This document shows positions 8,565 to 56,672 of a DNA stretch of 60,406 bases, piece after piece. Source of the DNA: Magnetococcales bacterium DCbin4 (GTDB lineage: Bacteria > Pseudomonadota > Magnetococcia > Magnetococcales > UBA8363); contig PEAN01000019.1 in the NCBI GenBank assembly GCA_002753735.1, forward strand, positions 1-60,406. The letters run 5' to 3'. Position numbers and translations under genes: made by a program. Position 1 is the stretch's first letter; each line of letters starts with the position of its first letter. The notes below the pieces were generated by a model. It searched no databases and was not told where the DNA came from. It was given only the letters and a program-made list of their open reading frames with translations.

Positions 8565-9755
<1,191 letters not shown>

Positions 9756-25574: not shown

Positions 25575-26765
25575 ATGGCCAAGGAAAAATTTGAGCGCAA
25601 CAAACCGCATGTGAATATTGGTACCATTGGTCATGTGGACCATGGTAAGACGACCTTGACGGCAGCGATTACCAAGACGCTTGCTCGAAAAGGTGGCGCC
25701 AAATTCATGGCCTATGATCAGATTGATTCGGCACCCGAAGAGAAGGAACGGGGGATTACGATTTCAACGGCGCACGTTGAGTATGAGACGGAAGCACGGC
25801 ATTATGCGCATGTGGATTGTCCCGGTCATGCTGATTATATTAAAAACATGATCACTGGCGCTGCACAGATGGATGGTGCTATACTGGTTGTTTCCGCTGC
25901 CGATGGACCGATGCCTCAAACGCGCGAGCATATCTTGTTGGCGCGGCAGGTGGGGGTTCCGGCCCTGGTGGTTTACCTGAACAAGGTGGACCAGGTGGAT
26001 GATCCTGAACTGTTGGAGTTGGTGGAGCTTGAGGTTCGGGAGTTGTTGAGTCAGTATGAGTTTCCTGGGGATGACATTCCCATTGTGACCGGCTCGGCGC
26101 TCAAGGCATTGGAAGAAGACGAGGGGGAGATGGGACATGGCTCCATCGTCAAGCTTCTTGAGGAAGTGGATGCCTATATTCCGCAACCGAACCGTCCATT
26201 GGATGGCAAGTTTTTGATGCCGATTGAGGATGTGTTTACGATTTCGGGTCGTGGGACGGTGGTCACGGGGCGTATTGAGCGCGGCGTGGTCAATGTGGGT
26301 GATACGGTGGCGATTGTCGGTCTGAGGGATACCCAGACGACGACCTGTACCGGAGTGGAAATGTTTCGCAAGCTGCTCGACCAAGGGCAGGCAGGTGACA
26401 ACGTTGGGGTGTTGCTTCGGGGGACGAAGCGTGAAGATGTGGAACGGGGGCAGGTATTGGCGGCACCCAATTCCATTACGCCACATACGAAGTTCAAGGC
26501 GGAATGTTACATCCTGACCAAGGAGGAAGGTGGCCGTCACACACCGTTTTTCTCGAATTATCGGCCGCAGTTTTATTTTCGGACCACGGATGTGACCGGA
26601 ATATTGAAGCTGCCGGAAGGGATTGAAATGGTGATGCCGGGGGACAATGTGACGTTGGAAGTCGATTTGATCGCCCCGATTGCCATGGAAAAAGGATTGC
26701 GGTTTGCCATCCGGGAAGGTGGCCGGACGGTTGGTGCGGGAGTTGTGAGTGAAGTTCTTCAATAA
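25575..26765 (+). CDS. tuf: Elongation factor Tu, copy 2
   Basis: A 396-aa EF-Tu in the str operon, 11 nt after fusA. All GTPase motifs are present (G4 is the canonical NKVD, NKAD in copy 1). About 23 substitutions separate it from copy 1, and codon usage also differs along its length. Gene conversion between the two copies is therefore not recent. Confidence 0.98.
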
Positions 26766-42711: not shown

Positions 42712-44691
42712 ATGATACAGTCGGATAAGCTGGACCGTCTGTCCTGTGCGACGTTACGGATGCTGGCGGTGGATGCCATCGAAAAGGCGCGCTCTGGACA
42801 TCCAGGGATGGCATTGGGGGCGGCGACGTTGGCACATGTCCTTTGGTCCAGGTTTTTGAGCCATGATCCCACCGATCCCGAATGGCCCAACCGTGATCGG
42901 TTTGTCTTGTCGGCTGGGCATGCCTCGATGCTTTTGTATGGATTGTTGCATTTGTCCGGTTATGATCTTTCCATGGAATCCCTGACCCGTTTTCGCCAAC
43001 TGGATTCGGTGACGGCTGGACATCCCGAACGAGGGTCCCCCCCCGGGGTTGAGGTGACGACGGGTCCTTTGGGGCAGGGGATGGCAATGGCGGTGGGAAT
43101 GGCCATGGCGGAACAACGGTTGGCGCGAACGTTCAATGGGATGCAGAACCCCCCTTTGATCGATCATTATACCTACGTTTTGCTTTCCGATGGCGACATG
43201 ATGGAGGGGGTGACGCATGAAGCGGCATCTTTGGCGGGTCATTTGAAGCTCGGCAAATTGATTGCCCTTTATGACAAAAACAACATTTCCATTGAGGGGG
43301 ATACCGATCTTGCCTTTACCGAGGATGTTGCCATGACATTCACGGGGTGTGGTTGGCATACGTTGTCGGTGGCGGATGGTGAATCCTTGTCTGCCATTGA
43401 GCAGGCCATTATTGCGGCACGTGAGGTGACGGATCGTCCCAGTCTGATCGTGGTCCATACCCGGATCGGCTTTGGCAGCCCCAAGCAGGGGTCGGCGGAG
43501 TCTCACGGTGCCCCGTTAGGGCAGGCCGCTGTGGCGGCGACGCGTCGTTTTTTCAACTGGCCGGATGAAACCTTCCATGTCCCGGAGGAGGTCAGGGAGT
43601 TTTGGCATCAAGTTCGGCAGCGTGGTCGGCAATCGAGAATCCAATGGCAGCAGCATCTACGGCAATGGATGACTGCAAACCCAGAGATGGGTGCAGCCTT
43701 GAATTCACGTTTGGAATTGTCTTTGGGTCACTCCTGGCGTGAAGTTTTGGATCGGATGTCGTTTTCTTCCGGTGATCATGCAACACGTACCGTGTCGGGT
43801 TGGATCCTGAATGCCATGGCCCGTGAAATCCCCGCGCTTTGGGGTGGTTCAGCCGATCTGGGATCTTCGGTCAATACGGATCTGGTGGATGAACCGGAGC
43901 GCATAATTCATTTCGGGGTCCGGGAGCATGCAATGGGGGCCATCGTGAATGGCATTGCTGCGCATGGGGGCTTTTTGCCCTACTGTGGCACCTTTTTTTC
44001 ATTCTCCAATTATATGATGCCGGCCATGCGGATGGCGGCTTTGATGCACTTGCGGGTCATTTACCTGTTTTCGCATGACAGCATTGCCGTGGGTGAAGAT
44101 GGGCCAACCCATCAACCTGTCGAACATTTGCTTCATTTACGGGCGATTCCCGGGATGACAACCATTCGGCCCGGCGATGTCTGGGAGACCCGGGCGGCTT
44201 GGCGTTTGGCGTTGGAGTTGCCCGGTCCGGTGGCGCTGATCCTGACTCGGCAGAAAATTTCCCGGGTCGATGAAGAACCGGTATCCGTGGAACGTGGGGC
44301 CTACATCCGGCGTGATTGTGTGGGGGTGCCTGAATTGATTTTGATTGGCAGTGGCAGTGAATTACCCTTGATCTTGAACTGTCATGCACAACTGCTCGCC
44401 CGGGGGGTTCGGGTTCGCCTGGTGTCGATGCCTTCGTGGGAGTTGTTCGCGCAGCAATCGGAGTCTTATCAAGAGGAGGTGTTTCCGGCCCGGGTGACCC
44501 GCAGGCTCGCCGTCGAAGCCGCTTCCCCCATGGGGTGGCATCGATGGGTGGGGTTACAGGGGAAAATCATTGGTGTCGAAGGGTTCGGTGTTTCGGGACC
44601 TTTTGAGCAGGTGCTCGACAAATTTGGATTTTCCAAGGAACATGTCTTGCGGACCGCTTGGTCGATGGTTCGTTCCGGATCATGGAATTGA
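42712..44691 (+). CDS. tkt: Transketolase
   Basis: It moves two-carbon units between sugar phosphates with thiamine diphosphate, in the pentose-phosphate or Calvin cycle. The product is 659 aa. The N-terminal KARSGHPGMALGAA motif is at about 25-38, the TPP-binding region LSDGDMMEGVTHEA at about 157-170, and the pyrimidine domain has GEDGPTHQPVEH. ATG 42712 follows GTGAGGG at about 10 nt. The upstream GTG has no site. It overlaps the last codons of the converging glycan gene by 12 nt. No other Calvin-cycle gene is in the window. Confidence 0.95.
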   Translation: MIQSDKLDRLSCATLRMLAVDAIEKARSGHPGMALGAATLAHVLWSRFLSHDPTDPEWPNRDRFVLSAGHASMLLYGLLHLSGYDLSMESLTRFRQLDSVTAGHPERGSPPGVEVTTGPLGQGMAMAVGMAMAEQRLARTFNGMQNPPLIDHYTYVLLSDGDMMEGVTHEAASLAGHLKLGKLIALYDKNNISIEGDTDLAFTEDVAMTFTGCGWHTLSVADGESLSAIEQAIIAAREVTDRPSLIVVHTRIGFGSPKQGSAESHGAPLGQAAVAATRRFFNWPDETFHVPEEVREFWHQVRQRGRQSRIQWQQHLRQWMTANPEMGAALNSRLELSLGHSWREVLDRMSFSSGDHATRTVSGWILNAMAREIPALWGGSADLGSSVNTDLVDEPERIIHFGVREHAMGAIVNGIAAHGGFLPYCGTFFSFSNYMMPAMRMAALMHLRVIYLFSHDSIAVGEDGPTHQPVEHLLHLRAIPGMTTIRPGDVWETRAAWRLALELPGPVALILTRQKISRVDEEPVSVERGAYIRRDCVGVPELILIGSGSELPLILNCHAQLLARGVRVRLVSMPSWELFAQQSESYQEEVFPARVTRRLAVEAASPMGWHRWVGLQGKIIGVEGFGVSGPFEQVLDKFGFSKEHVLRTAWSMVRSGSWN

Positions 44692-46539
44692 GGAGGATGC
44701 GGTTGCAGTGAAATGACGATGCCAGGGACGATCCTGGTTTTCGGGGGGGGCTGTGAAAAAAGGTTTCATGTTGTCTGGTGTCGGCTTGGCATAAAGCTGG
44801 TCCAGAAAGTCGGTGGCCTGTTTCATTTCCAGATGGTATTGCGTCTCCGACATCGATTCAAATTCCCGGACATGTCGTTCAATGTCGCCAAGGGAATGGG
44901 CCACCCGTTTCATGTAGGGGCAATCAATCAGGGGGTCTTCCTCCAGAATGTCACTGGATTTCAGATGAATGACAGGGACACCCAGCCGAACCGCCGTCAT
45001 GACGGCGGTTGAGGAAATATAAAGAACAACCTCCCCCTCCAAAATGGCTTGAGCAAGGTCGCCGGGATGGCTTTCGGCAACCGGACCTGCATCGGTCAGG
45101 GTTACACCCGCCTTGGCGGCAATTTCCCGGGCGGGCATGACCGGATGCCCGCGTATGATGAAGGTCAATGCGTGGTTTCCTTTTGAAACATGGGCAATCC
45201 AGCGCAAGACTGGAATCACGGATGGTAACCCTTCAAAAAGAACCACGATGCGTTTGACTTGGCGTGGAGGATGCCGTCGCAGTTGTGTCATGGTATTGGA
45301 ATCACGAAACGCACATCCAACGGCGACGTATTGGGGATGGTGCGCCCCCAGGGAGAGGAACATGGAGCGGCTGGCGCTCCCGGTACATACGATCATATCT
45401 GGTGCAGGACGCAACAGGGTTTCTTCGGGGGAAATATGATTTTTAAGATGTGATTTCAAGACCGCGCAATGCAGATAACCGGTGACGCTGCGTGGATTTG
45501 GGAGTGATTTCGCCGCGATGGCACATGCCCGTTCCCAGGGATTGTTTTCATACATGTGTATGACGCGGCACTCGGGGTTGGCCAGTAAGAATCGGCGCAA
45601 GGATTGTTGCAGCATGTAGCCATTGGCGATGATGCCAATTGACATGCGCCGTAAATCCCATTGCACCAAATCAACGGTATTGATACCCGTGGGGTTGTCG
45701 AGTTGGACTCCTCGTATCTTCTGGGTATAAGCCCATCGGATCGAACGCCAGACATCGCCAAAGGTCAGGAAATCCCAACAGGTACAGAGTGGGATCGATG
45801 TAATGCGGCGAATATGGGAAAATAATTCTGTGCGAAAATCATAAGGGAATCCAAAGACGACGGTGGTCCCTTCCGTCTTGTTCAGTTCATAGGGCAGGCG
45901 ATCAAAATAAATATCATTATAGGTCCCGGCTTCAGCCTGTTTTCGCAGGTTGGGGAGCATGAGTATGGAAATGATGACGACTTTGGCATGTTGGAATGAC
46001 GCCATGGGGGCTGGAGATTTTTTTGCAGCATGGGCCATGCGCAAACCGTTGATCAGCCAGCGGGCACTGCCAAGGAGTTTCTTGATGCTGAAGAATATTC
46101 TTTTCACTCCCCACCGCAATTGATCGTGCCAGGAGCGTTGGACCTTCCAACCACCTTTACGGGCAATTTGTGCCACCCATGTGGCGATGTACGGGTCCGG
46201 ACAAACCCAATAGCACGATTGCGATCCCTCCAGGGTCTTGACCAATTGGGCAAAGCGAAAGCCCGTAACCAATACATCGAAACTATTGGAATTGAACCGA
46301 CATCGCGAGGAAAGCCAAGTGTACCACCATGAGGGTTGGGCGTGGTTTGCTTCGGACAGTTGGGTGACCAGGGTGTTGAATGTGTTGATCACCTGTTGGG
46401 CTTCGGTCGGGGAGAGAGAAGGTAACAGGATGATGGAAGGATCGGTCGAGGGTTGCCCCGGAATGTCGGGAGATTCAATACGTCGCCATTGTTCCTGGGA
46501 CACTGGCCGCGAACGGGAGAGGATACGCAAATGGTGCAT
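44680..46539 (-). CDS. Large protein of a surface-glycan operon, function unknown (glycosyltransferase-like)
   Basis: About 619 aa from the ATG at 46539. A GTG at 46587 would give 635 aa, but without a clear ribosome-binding site. I do not recognise the family with certainty. The C-terminal half, from about 390 on, reads like a GT-B-fold or surface-carbohydrate protein: PAPDMIVCTGSASRSMF, a KRIVVLFEGLPSVIPVL beta strand, TFIIRGHPVMPAREIA, LYISSTAVMTAVRLGVPVIH. This is the pattern of a nucleotide-sugar or phosphate-binding C-domain. No signal peptide is visible and one weak hydrophobic stretch lies near residue 160. It is the last gene of the kdsA-to-rSAM minus-strand operon, so it may transfer or modify the sugar made upstream. 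Confidence 0.6.
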   Translation of the reverse strand: MHHLRILSRSRPVSQEQWRRIESPDIPGQPSTDPSIILLPSLSPTEAQQVINTFNTLVTQLSEANHAQPSWWYTWLSSRCRFNSNSFDVLVTGFRFAQLVKTLEGSQSCYWVCPDPYIATWVAQIARKGGWKVQRSWHDQLRWGVKRIFFSIKKLLGSARWLINGLRMAHAAKKSPAPMASFQHAKVVIISILMLPNLRKQAEAGTYNDIYFDRLPYELNKTEGTTVVFGFPYDFRTELFSHIRRITSIPLCTCWDFLTFGDVWRSIRWAYTQKIRGVQLDNPTGINTVDLVQWDLRRMSIGIIANGYMLQQSLRRFLLANPECRVIHMYENNPWERACAIAAKSLPNPRSVTGYLHCAVLKSHLKNHISPEETLLRPAPDMIVCTGSASRSMFLSLGAHHPQYVAVGCAFRDSNTMTQLRRHPPRQVKRIVVLFEGLPSVIPVLRWIAHVSKGNHALTFIIRGHPVMPAREIAAKAGVTLTDAGPVAESHPGDLAQAILEGEVVLYISSTAVMTAVRLGVPVIHLKSSDILEEDPLIDCPYMKRVAHSLGDIERHVREFESMSETQYHLEMKQATDFLDQLYAKPTPDNMKPFFTAPPENQDRPWHRHFTATASSSIP

Positions 46540-46599
46540 GGTCAACACTCGTTGACGGAACAGGAGGATGCCACACTTCTGTTGCACCCGGGAAGGCGG

Positions 46600-47601
46600 T
46601 TATGGTTGCTCAGTACCAAATTTCCGATGATCAATCCCCTTGGCGACCTTCGACTCACCATAGACCCGGCCCGGGATGTTGGTCCAAACCAATGATTCAG
46701 AAAAATCATAGAGTTGATCGCAGTCGCGGCAATAAGGGATATCATCAAAACGCTTTTCAACGTGAGCGGCCCGCAATTGTTGATAGGGTTCTCCAGAAAC
46801 CACTTCATGGATGGTCTGGGAATCCAGGTGGCCGAGTACCCCCTGGGAATCTTTTCCGAGGACCATGCAACATGCGACCACGGCGCCATGATGTGAATCC
46901 AGTCCACCTGCCCGCACTTGCAGGAGGGGCGAAAATGGACGACCACAGGAGCGCTTTTGGGGGGAACCCGCCAGGTTGCGGCGGTCGTAGGGTGCATCCA
47001 TGCCACCCGACCAGTTGTGCATCATCCAAATTTCGGCCAAGGCACCGGTGGGTTCGACCCAATTTTGCCGATACCATTGGATTTCCTGTTCTTTTTGTGC
47101 AACGTTGGTCAATAGATGATAGAGATGGACTTGAGTTTTCCCTCCCAGGCGCTGGTTCAGGGCGACAAATTGACGGACATTGTTGCGGACCAGTTCAAAT
47201 TCATCCTTGCTCATCCAACGTTGATAACTTTCACGGTCATATCCAACCGCTGAAACACGAAGAATATCGATTTCCGCCTCAATCAGGCGTTGCGCAAGGG
47301 ACTCATTCAACTTCAGGCCGTTGGTAAAAGAGACGCATTGAATCCCTTTGTTTTTGATATGGCGGACCATCTGTGGCATGTCTTGATTCAACGTCGGTTC
47401 GCCCGATCCGTGCAGGGAAACCGATTGGACACCATATTGCATGGCGTCCTCAATCATTTTTTCAAAAACGGGCCAGGGCAGTTTTTTGAGGAAATCCTTT
47501 TCCCGACCGTTTGCTTGGGGGCACATACCGCATTTAAGGTTGCAGCTACCGTTGAGTTCGAGGTCGAGTTGACGAATTTCAATTTTTTCGGGAATCGGCA
47601 T
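46600..47601 (-). CDS. Radical SAM/SPASM domain protein
   Basis: A 333-aa protein. The radical-SAM cluster motif CNLKCGMC (Cys20, Cys24, Cys27) is followed by GSGEPTLN, the SAM-binding GGE-like motif. A C-terminal SPASM-type cysteine set (CGRPFSP, VACCMV, YCRDCDQ) would bind auxiliary Fe-S clusters. SPASM enzymes modify peptides, sugars or small molecules. The neighbours suggest a sugar or lipid substrate, but that is inference. ATG 47601 is chosen because similarity to the family begins here. The longer upstream frame runs into the kdsB-like gene. It starts 35 nt after that gene. Confidence 0.85.
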   Translation of the reverse strand: MPIPEKIEIRQLDLELNGSCNLKCGMCPQANGREKDFLKKLPWPVFEKMIEDAMQYGVQSVSLHGSGEPTLNQDMPQMVRHIKNKGIQCVSFTNGLKLNESLAQRLIEAEIDILRVSAVGYDRESYQRWMSKDEFELVRNNVRQFVALNQRLGGKTQVHLYHLLTNVAQKEQEIQWYRQNWVEPTGALAEIWMMHNWSGGMDAPYDRRNLAGSPQKRSCGRPFSPLLQVRAGGLDSHHGAVVACCMVLGKDSQGVLGHLDSQTIHEVVSGEPYQQLRAAHVEKRFDDIPYCRDCDQLYDFSESLVWTNIPGRVYGESKVAKGIDHRKFGTEQP

Positions 47602-47636
47602 GGTTGGATTCGATATCGAGGTCAGAGTGAGCGAAT

Positions 47637-48377
47637 CTATTGCGGTTGTTTTTTCAAGACCGCTTCTACGCGTGCGATGTCTTCCAAATGATCGACGCCG
47701 ATCGATCCCGCAGGAATCGGAATACATGCGATCCGTTGGCCGTATTCCAAAAATCGCAATAGTTCGATGCTTTCCGCACGCTCAACCGGACCCTGGCTCC
47801 ACGTTGAAAAGCGGAGGAGGGCGGGCTTGGTGAAGGCGTACAGACCGACATGAACATTGCGCCGGAAGGGTTCCCGAAAACTCATGGGGATCGGAAGACG
47901 GGAAAACGTCAGGACACAATGGTCGAGGGTGGGGACCAGATGGACGCTGGAAGGGGAGGCTTCCTGTTCCGGGGTCGCCCCCTCGATGTAGCCGGTCGAA
48001 ACTTCGATCCCCCGTTGCTGTTCCTTGAGCAGACAGGTCACGACGGCATCGATGGCATCAGGTTGGATGATCGGTTCATCTCCTTGGACATTGACGAAGA
48101 TATCGGCGTTGACGCGTGAAGCAACCTCCGCCAATCGGTCGGTGCCCGTTAAATGATTGGGTGAAGTCATCATACAATCGATGCCATGGTCCTTACAGAC
48201 GATGGCGATGCGCTCATCCTCGGTTGCCACGATGATTTTGTGAACGGTTTTTGCCTTGGACGCCTGCTGCCAGACCCGAACAATCATGGGAATCCCAGCA
48301 ATCAGTGCCAAGGGTTTTCCAGGGAATCGTTGTGATTGCCAACGGGCGGGAATGACCGCCATGACACTTTTGTTCAT
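47637..48377 (-). CDS. kdsB: CMP-Kdo synthetase-type cytidylyltransferase (KdsB-like)
   Basis: A 246-aa enzyme. It activates an 8- or 9-carbon ketosugar acid with CTP to the CMP-sugar. The KdsB signature VIPARWQSQRFPGKPL is at about 8-23, VNVQGDEPII at about 93-102, with HVGLYAFTKPALLRF and the end SIGVDHLEDIARVE. It fits the Kdo (3-deoxy-D-manno-octulosonate) branch better than NeuA. With kdsA in the same operon, this may be a dedicated Kdo supply for a surface glycan rather than the lipid-A set. Its start codon touches the stop codon of the gene before it (no gap). Confidence 0.9.
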   Translation of the reverse strand: MNKSVMAVIPARWQSQRFPGKPLALIAGIPMIVRVWQQASKAKTVHKIIVATEDERIAIVCKDHGIDCMMTSPNHLTGTDRLAEVASRVNADIFVNVQGDEPIIQPDAIDAVVTCLLKEQQRGIEVSTGYIEGATPEQEASPSSVHLVPTLDHCVLTFSRLPIPMSFREPFRRNVHVGLYAFTKPALLRFSTWSQGPVERAESIELLRFLEYGQRIACIPIPAGSIGVDHLEDIARVEAVLKKQPQ

Positions 48378-49340
48378 CTAAGGATGGTTCCTGTACAGTG
48401 CGGCCAGGCGATGACGAATCGGCCCATCATAGGGACGAAAGATCGGCCACTTGAGCTGATAGAATTCCTGATGCCATGGACAGAGCTCATCAAGCATGAT
48501 GTGATCCTTCGTGTGCCAAGGGTAGTCGTTAAAACGGACCAGAGTTCCATCCGGCAGATATTTATCCTCACGATTGCAACAATAGAAGTATATTGGTTCG
48601 CCCGATACCTGTCGCAAGGCGGAAAAATAATTGGCAATGGTGGGGGGATTCATTTCCTGCATTGAGGCGATGTTGACCGCCAGATTCACTCGGGCTCCTT
48701 GGAAAAGTTGATAATCATCCGCTTTGAGTGCGATGACTGCAATCCGGTCATCGTTCATGGCGTGGTCAAAACCGGTTTTGTCGGTCGCCAAGGCGATGCC
48801 AATATCGGGCAATGCCGTCTGGATGAACGACAAATCAACGATCAATGTTCTGATAATATTGACAACGATGACTTTTTTGACGCTATTCGTGAACAGAAGC
48901 AGTGTTGAGAACACGCCAAATCCATCGCCGATGACAAGTGCGGCTTCCTCGTTGTTGGCGAAAGCATGGGGGATGTGTTCAAGAAGCAGGGAAAGCGTCA
49001 GGGTTTGACGCAACCGGTCCAGGCCATATTGGCGGTTTTGCCGGTTTGCGATTTCGCGTCCTGCCCGGTCGATTTCTGGAAACCGGGAAAATCCGTTTCC
49101 CATCACGCGAAAACGATTTTGAAACAGTTGGTGCGTGACCCTCTGTATCTGCGACTTGATGCCTGCACGCAGGGGTTGATTTTCACCGAACCCTTTGATG
49201 CCGGTTAAGGTTCCCTGGTTGACACTGAACTCCTTGTGCATATCCACCCAATGTGAAGAGATGCCCGCCTCAAGGACGTTGACCTGTTCACAAAGGGTTC
49301 GGATGGCTTCTGAACCATGAAACAGCACGGGTTGGCTCAT
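48378..49340 (-). CDS. Putative sugar O-methyltransferase (NanM-like)
   Basis: A 320-aa protein. A glycine-rich, SAM-binding-like motif I (ALVIGDGFGVFS, about 134-145) in a Rossmann-type core is preceded by a long N-terminal domain. The layout resembles the family called putative sugar O-methyltransferase, found in polysaccharide clusters. I recall this from family knowledge and have not verified it. The start ATG at 49340 overlaps the CBS-gene stop by 4 nt (ATGA). It is flanked by KdsA, CBS and KdsB genes, which suggests a methylated ketosugar or a methylated glycan end cap. Confidence 0.6.
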   Translation of the reverse strand: MSQPVLFHGSEAIRTLCEQVNVLEAGISSHWVDMHKEFSVNQGTLTGIKGFGENQPLRAGIKSQIQRVTHQLFQNRFRVMGNGFSRFPEIDRAGREIANRQNRQYGLDRLRQTLTLSLLLEHIPHAFANNEEAALVIGDGFGVFSTLLLFTNSVKKVIVVNIIRTLIVDLSFIQTALPDIGIALATDKTGFDHAMNDDRIAVIALKADDYQLFQGARVNLAVNIASMQEMNPPTIANYFSALRQVSGEPIYFYCCNREDKYLPDGTLVRFNDYPWHTKDHIMLDELCPWHQEFYQLKWPIFRPYDGPIRHRLAALYRNHP

Positions 49341-49768
49341 CCCACTTGTTTTCCTAATCCCAGCAAGGTCTTGACTGCCGGGTGGAGGTGCAACAATCCG
49401 ACCAGGACACCATCGGTCCGGACGACGGGGAGATCCCAGATCCGTTTGTCCCCCATGATGTTGACCGCTTCGGTCAGTTTGCTTTCCGGGGTGATGGTGG
49501 TGCATTTGCGCGTGATGTGGACGGAAATGTCATCATTGAACAAAGCGGCAAACGGTTTTTGCTCCTTGAGGAGCAGGCGCCGGACATCACCGTCGGTGAA
49601 AACCCCTTCCAGATGGCCGGAACGGTCCGTAATACAGACAACCCCGAGGCGGAATTTACCCATGAGTTCAAGAATTTCTTTCAAGATTGCCGTTCCAGGC
49701 GCAACAGGTGCATCCTTGATGGGCATCATGACATCGGCGACGGAAAGGTCAATTTTCAAGGTGGACAC
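49337..49768 (-). CDS. Stand-alone CBS-domain pair protein
   Basis: A 143-aa protein made of two CBS domains (about 10-75 and 80-140). FTDGDVRRLL is diagnostic and closely resembles the C-terminal half of arabinose-5-phosphate isomerase (KdsD/KpsF). The SIS isomerase domain is absent. CBS pairs bind adenosyl or nucleotide ligands and regulate partner enzymes. Placed between kdsA and a methyltransferase, it may be a split-off KdsD regulatory half. It overlaps kdsA by 20 nt. Confidence 0.85.
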   Translation of the reverse strand: MSTLKIDLSVADVMMPIKDAPVAPGTAILKEILELMGKFRLGVVCITDRSGHLEGVFTDGDVRRLLLKEQKPFAALFNDDISVHITRKCTTITPESKLTEAVNIMGDKRIWDLPVVRTDGVLVGLLHLHPAVKTLLGLGKQVG

Positions 49769-50630
49769 GGTCTTCCCCCCATTGTTTCAACAGTTCGAGA
49801 CGTAATTCATGGAATGCCTTGGATTGAGCCAGGACCCGTTCCAGATATTTGATGTCCATGACCGTATTGCCATCGGACAGGGCATTGGCGGGATCATCAT
49901 GGACTTCGCAAAACAAGGCGTTGATGCCGCAGGCGGCCGCGGCTCGGGCCAAATAGGGGATGAATTCCCGTTGACCACCGGATGCGTTGCCCATGGAGGT
50001 TGGGAGTTGGATGGAGTGACTGACATCCATGCATACGGGATATCCTGTTTCCATCATGATGGGAAAACAGCGGAAATCATTGACCTGCATGTTGTAGCCG
50101 AAAAAAGTGCCACGGTCGGTGAGCAGAATCTGTTGGCCACCCCAATATTCAATCTTCCGCACCGAGTTTTTCATGTTCCAGGGACTCATGAACTGTCCTT
50201 TTTTCAGGTGGACAGGGCGTTGGGTCCGGGCGGCGGCACGTAGTATGTTGGTTTGTCGGCACAGATAGGCCGGGACCTGAACCAGGTCGCAGACTTCGCC
50301 GGTGGCTTGTGCCCAGTCGGCAGCCGAAAAATCAGAGGAGACGGGAATCCCGAACTCTTTTCGGACCTCCTCGAGAATTTTCAACCCTTCATCGACACCC
50401 AGGCCGTGGAAGCTGTCGGGTGAGGAGCGGCAATCCTTGTCATAACAGGATTTGTAGATCCAAGGTACCTTGAGTTTGTCACAGATGGCAGCGATCTGTG
50501 AGGCCATTTTCAATGCATGGTCGCGGTTTTCAATGGCGCATGGGCCACCGATGAAGGCCAGCGGTTGGTCGCCGCCGATCTTGACCTGACGCACAGCGCC
50601 ATAACCAATGGTGATTGTCTTGGTCAGCAC
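49749..50630 (-). CDS. kdsA: 3-deoxy-8-phosphooctulonate synthase (KdsA), metal-dependent type
   Basis: It condenses phosphoenolpyruvate with arabinose 5-phosphate to Kdo 8-phosphate. The product is 293 aa from a GTG at 50630 (AGGAA upstream). FIGGPCAIEN (about 27-35) places Cys31 at the position of the metal ligand of class II enzymes, where the E. coli type has Asn. YKSCYDKDCRSS corresponds to the usual KSSFDKANRSS, with two cysteines replacing common residues. The typical SMGNASGGQREF and HDDPANALSDG are present. It is first in the minus-strand operon and defines its theme. Confidence 0.93.
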   Translation of the reverse strand: MLTKTITIGYGAVRQVKIGGDQPLAFIGGPCAIENRDHALKMASQIAAICDKLKVPWIYKSCYDKDCRSSPDSFHGLGVDEGLKILEEVRKEFGIPVSSDFSAADWAQATGEVCDLVQVPAYLCRQTNILRAAARTQRPVHLKKGQFMSPWNMKNSVRKIEYWGGQQILLTDRGTFFGYNMQVNDFRCFPIMMETGYPVCMDVSHSIQLPTSMGNASGGQREFIPYLARAAAACGINALFCEVHDDPANALSDGNTVMDIKYLERVLAQSKAFHELRLELLKQWGEDRVHLEN

Positions 50631-55129: not shown

Positions 55130-55548
55130 GCATGGGGGTCAATCTGAACGGCGGTCGGGACGGTCTGTCGGCCATGAGTGACATCAACGTCACACCCATG
55201 GTGGACATCATGTTGGTGTTGCTTATTATTTTCATGGTGACTGCCCCGTTGATGACTCAGGGGGTGGAGGTGGACCTGCCTAAGGAGGATTCTCAAGCCA
55301 TTTCGACCGATACGGAACCTTTGGTGATTTCGGTTCGCTCGGATGGCAGTACATTTATTGAGGAGAAGGCAATCGGTATTGACGAACTGGGCGATAAGGT
55401 CCGGGGGATTCGCTTGGCAAATCCGAAGTTGCCTGTTTATGTTCGTGGGGATCGTGCTGCCGACTACGGTTTTGTGATCAGGGTGATGGCTGCATTGCAA
55501 CGCTCGGGAGTGGATCGAGTGGGACTGATTACGGAATTGCCTGAATGA
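55126..55548 (+). CDS. tolR: Tol-Pal system protein TolR
   Basis: A 140-aa protein. Its single helix (about 26-46, VDIMLVLLIIFMVTAPLM) carries the proton-path Asp27. A periplasmic domain follows. ATGA overlaps with both tolQ and tolA. Fits TolR/ExbD, and tolA next to it settles the name. Confidence 0.95.
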   Translation: MSMGVNLNGGRDGLSAMSDINVTPMVDIMLVLLIIFMVTAPLMTQGVEVDLPKEDSQAISTDTEPLVISVRSDGSTFIEEKAIGIDELGDKVRGIRLANPKLPVYVRGDRAADYGFVIRVMAALQRSGVDRVGLITELPE

Positions 55549-56672
55549 TGTTGCGTAGAAATTCTCTGATTGGGTCGATTGTTTTCCATCTTGTTTTTTT
55601 GATGGTGGCCTATTTTTTACCCATGGCCAATTTTGAGAAGGCGCAACCGCCAGTATTGGCGGTCAGTTTGATTCAAATGCCCAAACCCGCCCCTTCGCCC
55701 ATGTCGGCCCCTGCCAAACAACCACCGCCATCTGCGCGGTCGGCTCCAGAGCCTGCCGCCGCCAAGGAACCTCCGCGTCCCAAACCAGCGCAACCCGAGG
55801 CGCCACCTCCGCCCGATGTGGCCAAACCGATTGTGAAGCCGGAACCGCCCAAGGCTCCTCCTGAAAAACCAGTCGAAAAGCCTCGCCCCAAGCCAGAACC
55901 CAAACCTGAGCCCAAGCCCGAGCCCAAGCCCGAGCCCAAGCCTGAGCCCAAGCCCGAGCCCAAGCCTGAGCCCAAGCCCGAGCCCAAGCCAGAACCCAAG
56001 CCCGAGCCCAAGCCGGAAAAAGTTCCCGAACCGGCCAAAGAGCCTCCGAAGGAAAAACCCAAGCCCATGGTCGAACCGGGACCCAGGAAGAAGGCACCGG
56101 AGAAGCCAGAGAAAGCGGAAAAGACTGAGAAAGCGGAAAAGACTGAGAAAGCTGAAAAGACTGAGAAAGCGGAAAAGACTGAGAAAGCGGAAAAGACTGA
56201 GAAAGCGGAAAAGACCGAGGCCAAATCCGCGGCTAAGGCGGAAGATGCCAAGGCGGCGAATGATAAAAAGAAGCCGGCGCTTGATTTTTCCAAGGCCATT
56301 GCCAAATATCAGGATCAGGTTCAGAAGGATGAGCCGGTTGAGGACGGGCAACAGGATGCGTCGGATCAACCTTCGCCATCGGTTTCTCCGACGGTTCTGG
56401 CCCTGTGGCAGCGCAATATTACCATGACGGTCCGCAACAATTGGAGCAAGCCCAACGGTTTGGTCAATGAGACGCAGCTAGAGGTGCGGGTACGGGTTCG
56501 GGTGGGGCAGGATGGATCGCTTCAGGACGCCCAGGTGGAGCAATCCTCCGGAAACAAGGGATTTGATGGTTCGGTGTTGCGGGCCATTTGGAAGACACGG
56601 GTTGTCGATCCACCGCCAGCAGGATGCGATGAATGTCGTGAGTTGGAATTTTCCTTCAAGCCGGTGGAATAG
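55545..56672 (+). CDS. tolA: TolA-like protein with long Pro/Lys/Glu repeats
   Basis: A 375-aa protein. The N-terminal transmembrane helix (about 8-26) anchors it in the inner membrane. A Pro/Ala-rich stretch is followed by about 11 Pro-Lys-Pro-Glu units and six KAEKTE units. A C-terminal TonB/TolA domain (about 280-375, VRVGQDGSLQDAQVEQSSGNKGFDGSVLRAI) would contact Pal or TolB. It differs from the classic Ala-rich TolA because the middle is Pro-Lys-Glu and looks TonB-like. tolB and pal do not follow it here. Confidence 0.9.
   Translation: MMLRRNSLIGSIVFHLVFLMVAYFLPMANFEKAQPPVLAVSLIQMPKPAPSPMSAPAKQPPPSARSAPEPAAAKEPPRPKPAQPEAPPPPDVAKPIVKPEPPKAPPEKPVEKPRPKPEPKPEPKPEPKPEPKPEPKPEPKPEPKPEPKPEPKPEPKPEKVPEPAKEPPKEKPKPMVEPGPRKKAPEKPEKAEKTEKAEKTEKAEKTEKAEKTEKAEKTEKAEKTEAKSAAKAEDAKAANDKKKPALDFSKAIAKYQDQVQKDEPVEDGQQDASDQPSPSVSPTVLALWQRNITMTVRNNWSKPNGLVNETQLEVRVRVRVGQDGSLQDAQVEQSSGNKGFDGSVLRAIWKTRVVDPPPAGCDECRELEFSFKPVE
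55887..56018 (+). repeat. Eleven 12-bp repeats coding (Pro-Lys-Pro-Glu)n in tolA
   Basis: Near-identical CCCAAGCCCGAG units run in frame for 132 bp inside tolA. They code a rigid polyproline-like spacer. Such tracts can change length by slippage in multiples of three codons or more without shifting frame. Confidence 0.9.
56112..56219 (+). repeat. Six 18-bp repeats coding KAEKTE in tolA
   Basis: AAAGCGGAAAAGACTGAG repeats six times (108 bp) with two silent changes (GCT in the third unit, ACC in the sixth). The low divergence points to recent expansion. It codes a charged helical segment. Confidence 0.95.

Follow-up and report, generated by a model that had tools for sequence, protein, structure and literature searches.

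The window, by which we mean the whole 60,406-nucleotide stretch that was analysed, comes from a Magnetococcales MAG of uncultured magnetotactic type (4.5 Mb in 148 contigs, 95.9% complete). Six genes are packed on its minus strand between tkt and yebC. These are a kdsA-like gene (49749..50630; 293 amino acids, GTG start) whose product, here called KdsA2, is of the GGPC metal-dependent type, a stand-alone CBS-domain pair (49337..49768; 143 amino acids, with PF00571 in two stretches), a NanM-like putative sugar O-methyltransferase (48378..49340; 320 amino acids; TIGR04371), kdsB for a CMP-Kdo synthetase (47637..48377; NF003952), a radical SAM/SPASM enzyme (46600..47601; 333 amino acids; PF04055 and PF13186), and a predicted GT-B glycosyltransferase (44680..46539; 619 amino acids; AF2 model). 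The kdsA and CBS genes overlap by 20 nt (49749-49768), the CBS and methyltransferase genes overlap by 4 nt (49337-49340), and the methyltransferase gene meets kdsB with zero gap (48378/48377), and the open frames agree with the arrangement given in an initial annotation of this DNA. Gaps of 35 nt and 60 nt separate kdsB from the radical SAM gene and the radical SAM gene from the last gene, the stop of which runs 12 nt into the 3' end of the convergent tkt. The radical SAM open frame reaches upstream to 47727 and its start was set from orthologues; the last gene has an alternative GTG start at 46587. Scans of the operon for promoters and terminators gave nothing clear, and none of the KpsC/KpsS and ABC exporter genes of a group 2 kps capsule locus lies in or beside it. 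Because the same six genes occur in the same order and on the same strand in a second genome of the genus (L018 in G049), a chance grouping is excluded. Elsewhere in the window there are two near-identical EF-Tu genes, one at 8565-9755 in the str operon and one at 25575-26765 upstream of nusG, and a TolA/TonB-like protein with long KPEPKPEP and KAEKTEKAEKTE repeats (55545-56672).

We compared the operon with 398 Pseudomonadota genomes, a sample of one phylum that includes 48 Magnetococcales. Close kdsA2 orthologues (E <= 1e-95) were found in 4 of the 398 genomes, namely the source genome (G000), G049, G109, and G010. The radical SAM gene is in the same four of the 48 Magnetococcales and, across all 398 genomes, in these plus a distant match in G290. 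This last relative was rejected as a cassette member, as it lies in a generic glycan cluster where no kdsA or kdsB was seen. The comparison of gene neighbourhoods that had been proposed earlier recovered the six-gene set in G049 and a core of kdsA, CBS, kdsB, and radical SAM genes in four genomes (4/48 Magnetococcales), with the full six genes in G000 and G049. The core is contiguous in all four, except that two have the methyltransferase gene after CBS and before kdsB. The cores of G109 and G010 have neither this methyltransferase nor an adjacent glycosyltransferase of this type. What is conserved is thus the core of four genes; the methyltransferase and last gene make up the variable part. 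Between the two six-gene copies, identity is 89% for KdsA, 86% for the radical SAM enzyme, 65% for the methyltransferase, and 57% for the glycosyltransferase; the two lowest values fall where they would be expected if the final decoration of the sugar varies between strains.

The surroundings of the cassette differ. In G049 the six genes are flanked on one side by an RND-efflux-type gene set and on the other by decayed sugar-cluster remnants; the remnants, directly upstream of the operon (L018:17144-18397), are those of an alternative ulosonic-acid cluster. Such a cluster was also seen at L036:7631-13087 and L037:2201-10265, with genes for a second type of KdsB, Gfo/Idh, a GmhA-like SIS protein, a 2-hydroxyacid dehydrogenase, an HpcH/HpaI aldolase, and a methyltransferase, and it may make a 3-deoxy-ulosonate via a pyruvate aldolase. 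In G018 it is this alternative cluster, with its other kdsB type, that occupies the tkt-yebC site, and its SIS protein resembles the GmhA-type one of L018. The presence of different clusters suggests that ulosonic-acid clusters replace one another at the tkt-yebC site. G049 has an additional kdsB-radical SAM pair without kdsA. In G010 a pseB-type gene precedes kdsA and a GT2 gene follows the cassette. Directly upstream of the cassette kdsA of G109 is a gene for a B12-binding radical SAM protein (L032:10860-12503); its product scores 531 bits against the Sden_1168 P-methyltransferase family, the cut-off of which is 575.

The first gene encodes a Kdo8P synthase homologue of the metal-dependent type, with 334 bits against NF003543 (cut-off 242) and 318 against TIGR01362 (cut-off 314). 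A second copy had been named as a point to check, and for kdsA there is one: a housekeeping gene directly after pyrG (L019), the product of which is 39% identical to KdsA2. The source genome also has kdsD and a kdsC-like gene at the head of an lpt-type operon (L024) and a single copy of waaA. Since a complete housekeeping kdsA is present elsewhere in the genome, the operon kdsA is an extra, diverged copy. All four cassette KdsA orthologues keep the GGPC Cys, which binds the metal in this class (PMC3052366), and KdsA2 keeps the Lys, Arg, and Ser of the KANRS motif and the long SGGQRE substrate loop. In N. meningitidis KdsA, bound inhibitors come close to the KANRS residues Lys55, Asn57, and Arg58 of the active site (PMC6650799). 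At this position KdsA2 has KDCRS (residues 65-69; 50424..50438, minus strand), as do all four cassette orthologues, and in these four TDVHE is also replaced by SDFSx. By contrast, KANRS/T is unchanged in all other KdsA proteins compared: the housekeeping copy of the same genome, four plasmid copies, three PDB entries, and E. coli KdsA. With the KANRS motif lost, it is doubtful that the product is Kdo itself, and an altered aldose specificity of KdsA2 is plausible from these residues.

An alternative is that KDCRS is tolerated and that the product is ordinary Kdo, destined for a capsule or O-antigen, with the radical SAM enzyme and methyltransferase acting on other sugars of the chain. The conserved residues and family scores of KdsA2 fit this, as does a KdsB that looks canonical and presumably makes CMP-Kdo, and plasmid kdsB-kdsA pairs in the polysaccharide clusters of other bacteria set a precedent. 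However, KANRS/T is intact in every other KdsA compared, TDVHE is altered as well in the cassette proteins, and the radical SAM gene is tightly linked to kdsA and kdsB; we regard ordinary Kdo as doubtful. The Rhodobacterales plasmid pairs themselves were ruled out as the same cassette, as their KdsA has KANRS and no relative of the operon radical SAM gene or of the stand-alone CBS pair was found beside them. Every KdsA match from phages or plasmids was below 60% identity, and a scan of viral contigs with KdsA gave no match. As a side observation, a 16-kb record labelled as a Bacillus velezensis plasmid (NZ_CP061939.1, L049) carries kpsF-, kdsB-, and kdsA-like genes that resemble those on marine alphaproteobacterial plasmids, and it may be a contaminant.

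The situation for kdsB is the reverse, as no second copy was found. The operon gene is the only one in the source genome above the family cut-off (247 bits against NF003952, cut-off 193; 153.7 against TIGR00466, just below the cut-off of 155.2) and the next matches reach at most 69 bits. The best solved-structure matches of its product are all KdsB. In two genus mates (G057 and G026) the gene order is pyrD-ispH-DUF3108-kdsB-PilZ, where the names other than kdsB, like yebC and lpt, were read off translations. In the source genome, G049, and G018 the order is pyrD-ispH-PilZ, with both kdsB and the DUF3108 gene gone (L075, L076, L077) and the contig unbroken from ispH to the PilZ-like gene; all three genomes carry KdsB of the operon type. 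In a tree of 21 KdsB proteins, the operon copy, both G049 copies, and the G109 and G010 core copies form a clade with 100/100 support, which also takes in the lone kdsB genes of G018, G006, and G014. The sister of the operon protein (97/97) is that of G018, the gene for which also adjoins yebC. The operon KdsB passes the family model, belongs to a clade of its own, and stands in for the ordinary enzyme in three members of the genus. The sole copy, the missing gene at the syntenic site, and the tree together suggest that a cassette-type kdsB replaced the ordinary one, and the operon KdsB probably also serves lipid A.

These results bear on whether the operon is simply the Kdo supply for lipid A and the core, with neighbouring genes that decorate the Kdo of the LPS core. 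The initial annotation had recognized that the genes might be no more than the lipid-A Kdo set, which proved right for kdsB and wrong for kdsA. The single kdsB, the single waaA, and the loss of kdsB from its usual site are in keeping with such a supply role, and the lone operon-type kdsB genes of G018, G006, and G014 are best read as housekeeping genes. Yet the genome has complete housekeeping kdsA, kdsD, and kdsC elsewhere, the operon KdsA has diverged at KANRS, and most relatives have kdsB without the cassette. We therefore consider it unlikely that lipid-A supply explains the operon as a whole.

The CBS gene accompanies kdsA in each of the four core loci, and its product scores 53.7 bits against PF00571 (cut-off 24). 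It had been described as an orphan, which understates its affinity: among solved structures it is matched best by the CBS pair of an arabinose-5-phosphate isomerase (4o9k, E 2.6e-17), and two more such pairs (3fna and 3k2v) are in the top five PDB matches. Unlike KdsD/KpsF, the operon protein stands alone without an SIS isomerase domain. Some deposits of isomerase CBS pairs contain CMP-Kdo, and the operon CBS pair may sense this nucleotide sugar.

The radical SAM enzyme scores 49.6 bits for Radical_SAM (PF04055, cut-off 29.5) and 33.3 for SPASM (PF13186, cut-off 21.5), and the methyltransferase scores 52 bits for TIGR04371 methyltran_NanM (cut-off 44). With these, the family names first given to KdsA, CBS, NanM-like, KdsB, and radical SAM/SPASM proteins are all backed by profile scores above cut-off. 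The CxxxCxxC motif (C20-xxx-C24-xx-C27) is invariant across copies of the radical SAM enzyme, and the operon protein is 69-85% identical to the four others. SPASM enzymes often mature peptides or proteins, and the weak NCBIfam matches of this one include peptide maturases; it could in principle have such a substrate, unrelated to the sugar. We think this very unlikely, as the gene directly follows kdsB in 5/5 copies and among the nearest solved relatives (cytosylglucuronate decarboxylase, DesII, and BtrN) are enzymes with sugar or nucleoside substrates. The predicted model is poor (pLDDT 60) and unfit for a fold search. For the methyltransferase, a search of the Pseudomonadota sample and one scan of genome contigs gave a full-length orthologue only in G049 (65% identical) and three weak partial matches elsewhere; the search of solved structures gave no credible PDB match.

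The last protein, previously just a large glycan protein, can now be described more precisely as a predicted GT-B transferase that has an HP motif of the CMP-ulosonate type. An AF2 model built with eight homologues is confident, with a pLDDT of 83.7 and a pTM of 0.84, and the match to GT-B folds covers residues 184-602 (Z 13.6, rmsd 4.3, 316 residues). The structural neighbours are generic GT-B proteins only (non-hydrolysing UDP-GlcNAc 2-epimerases, TarM, and MurG), with WaaA at rank 50 in the Foldseek list. Sialyltransferases and retaining Kdo transferases use a (K/R)xHP motif for CMP binding (PMC12887879; PMC2169525); the last protein has it as R463-G-H-P466 (45142..45153, minus strand), with His in 8/8 homologues and Pro in 7/8. 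It thus resembles KpsC/WbbB/KrkA (GT107/GT99/GT140) in its GT-B-type fold, this motif, and a weak profile match to KpsC (E 0.019). It differs from them in an extra N-terminal part of about 180 residues and in QxxxD, the nucleophile motif of retaining Kdo transferases (PMC10148158), which is absent; FEGLP is at the corresponding strand end. With sialyltransferases of GT38/52/80 it shares the HP motif, and at their D/E-D/E-G position three of the eight homologues have F-E-G or M-D-G and the others D-Y or none; the first acidic residue is absent and no sequence match to these families was found. The C-terminal half aligns with TIGR04326 (surface carbohydrate biosynthesis protein, Leptospira O-antigen type), members of which also occur near cytidylyltransferases, but the score of 37 bits is far below the cut-off of 250.

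A cytidylyltransferase of KdsB or PseF/NeuA type is near this type of glycosyltransferase in 7/9 loci (the operon, L018, L037, L065, L067, L068, and L069); of the other two, L063 lacks such a gene and L066 is truncated where its contig ends. The homologue at L037:3277-5115 in G129 has in-frame stops and is probably a pseudogene or an assembly error. From its motif, model, and neighbours, the last protein is most likely a CMP-ulosonate transferase, and it may be an inverting one.

Together, these data lead us to favour, with some reserve, the idea that the operon is a patchy accessory cassette for making and modifying a CMP-activated 3-deoxy-2-ulosonic acid and attaching it to a surface glycan. 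The sugar would be Kdo or a close relative; its nature and that of the acceptor, like the order of steps, the CBS ligand, and the site of radical SAM action, are what we infer from the genes. KdsA2 would condense PEP with an aldose phosphate, and a general phosphatase would remove the phosphate, KdsC being encoded elsewhere in the genome. The cassette KdsB would then form the CMP sugar. The CBS pair is probably a sensor of CMP-Kdo or some other nucleotide, through which the pathway is tuned. The radical SAM/SPASM enzyme would alter a carbon centre of the sugar or a precursor, the NanM-like enzyme would O-methylate the sugar, and the GT-B enzyme would transfer it from CMP. With the ordinary kdsB lost, the cassette KdsB would also supply CMP-Kdo for lipid A. 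Against the cassette reading stand the last protein, which is far from TIGR04326 and lacks QxxxD, the narrow margin of the methyltransferase over its cut-off (52 versus 44 bits) and its lack of a credible PDB match, the variable last steps (G109 and G010), the G049 kdsB-radical SAM pair without kdsA, and the poor radical SAM model.

The original proposal of an operon for a dedicated glycan or a modified Kdo survives in part: the data support a unit devoted to a surface sugar, with a kdsA beyond the housekeeping one; its kdsB is the only copy found, and plain Kdo is doubtful. A more far-reaching version is possible, and we put it forward only tentatively: KdsA2 acting on another aldose phosphate, with the radical SAM enzyme and methyltransferase, would yield a new CMP-3-deoxy-ulosonic acid, the last protein would represent a new inverting CMP-ulosonate GT-B family, and KdsB would be bifunctional, also serving lipid-A Kdo. 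The initial annotation knew of no named system with this combination, and our literature search, with most subscription journals outside its reach, found no description of the six genes; a search of the same reach yielded no paper on KANRS, on CMP-Kdo with CBS, or on methylated Kdo.

The operon appears to belong among Kdo/CMP-ulosonate glycan loci, a known kind, its chemistry being that proposed above. If this is correct, it would encode a compact pathway to an unusual Kdo-type sugar, in which a radical SAM/SPASM enzyme would have a role in ulosonic-acid chemistry that can be tested, and its last protein would be a candidate for a new family of CMP-ulosonate transferases. It would also mean that a cassette for an accessory glycan can assume a step essential to lipid A, that of kdsB, and so become hard to lose.
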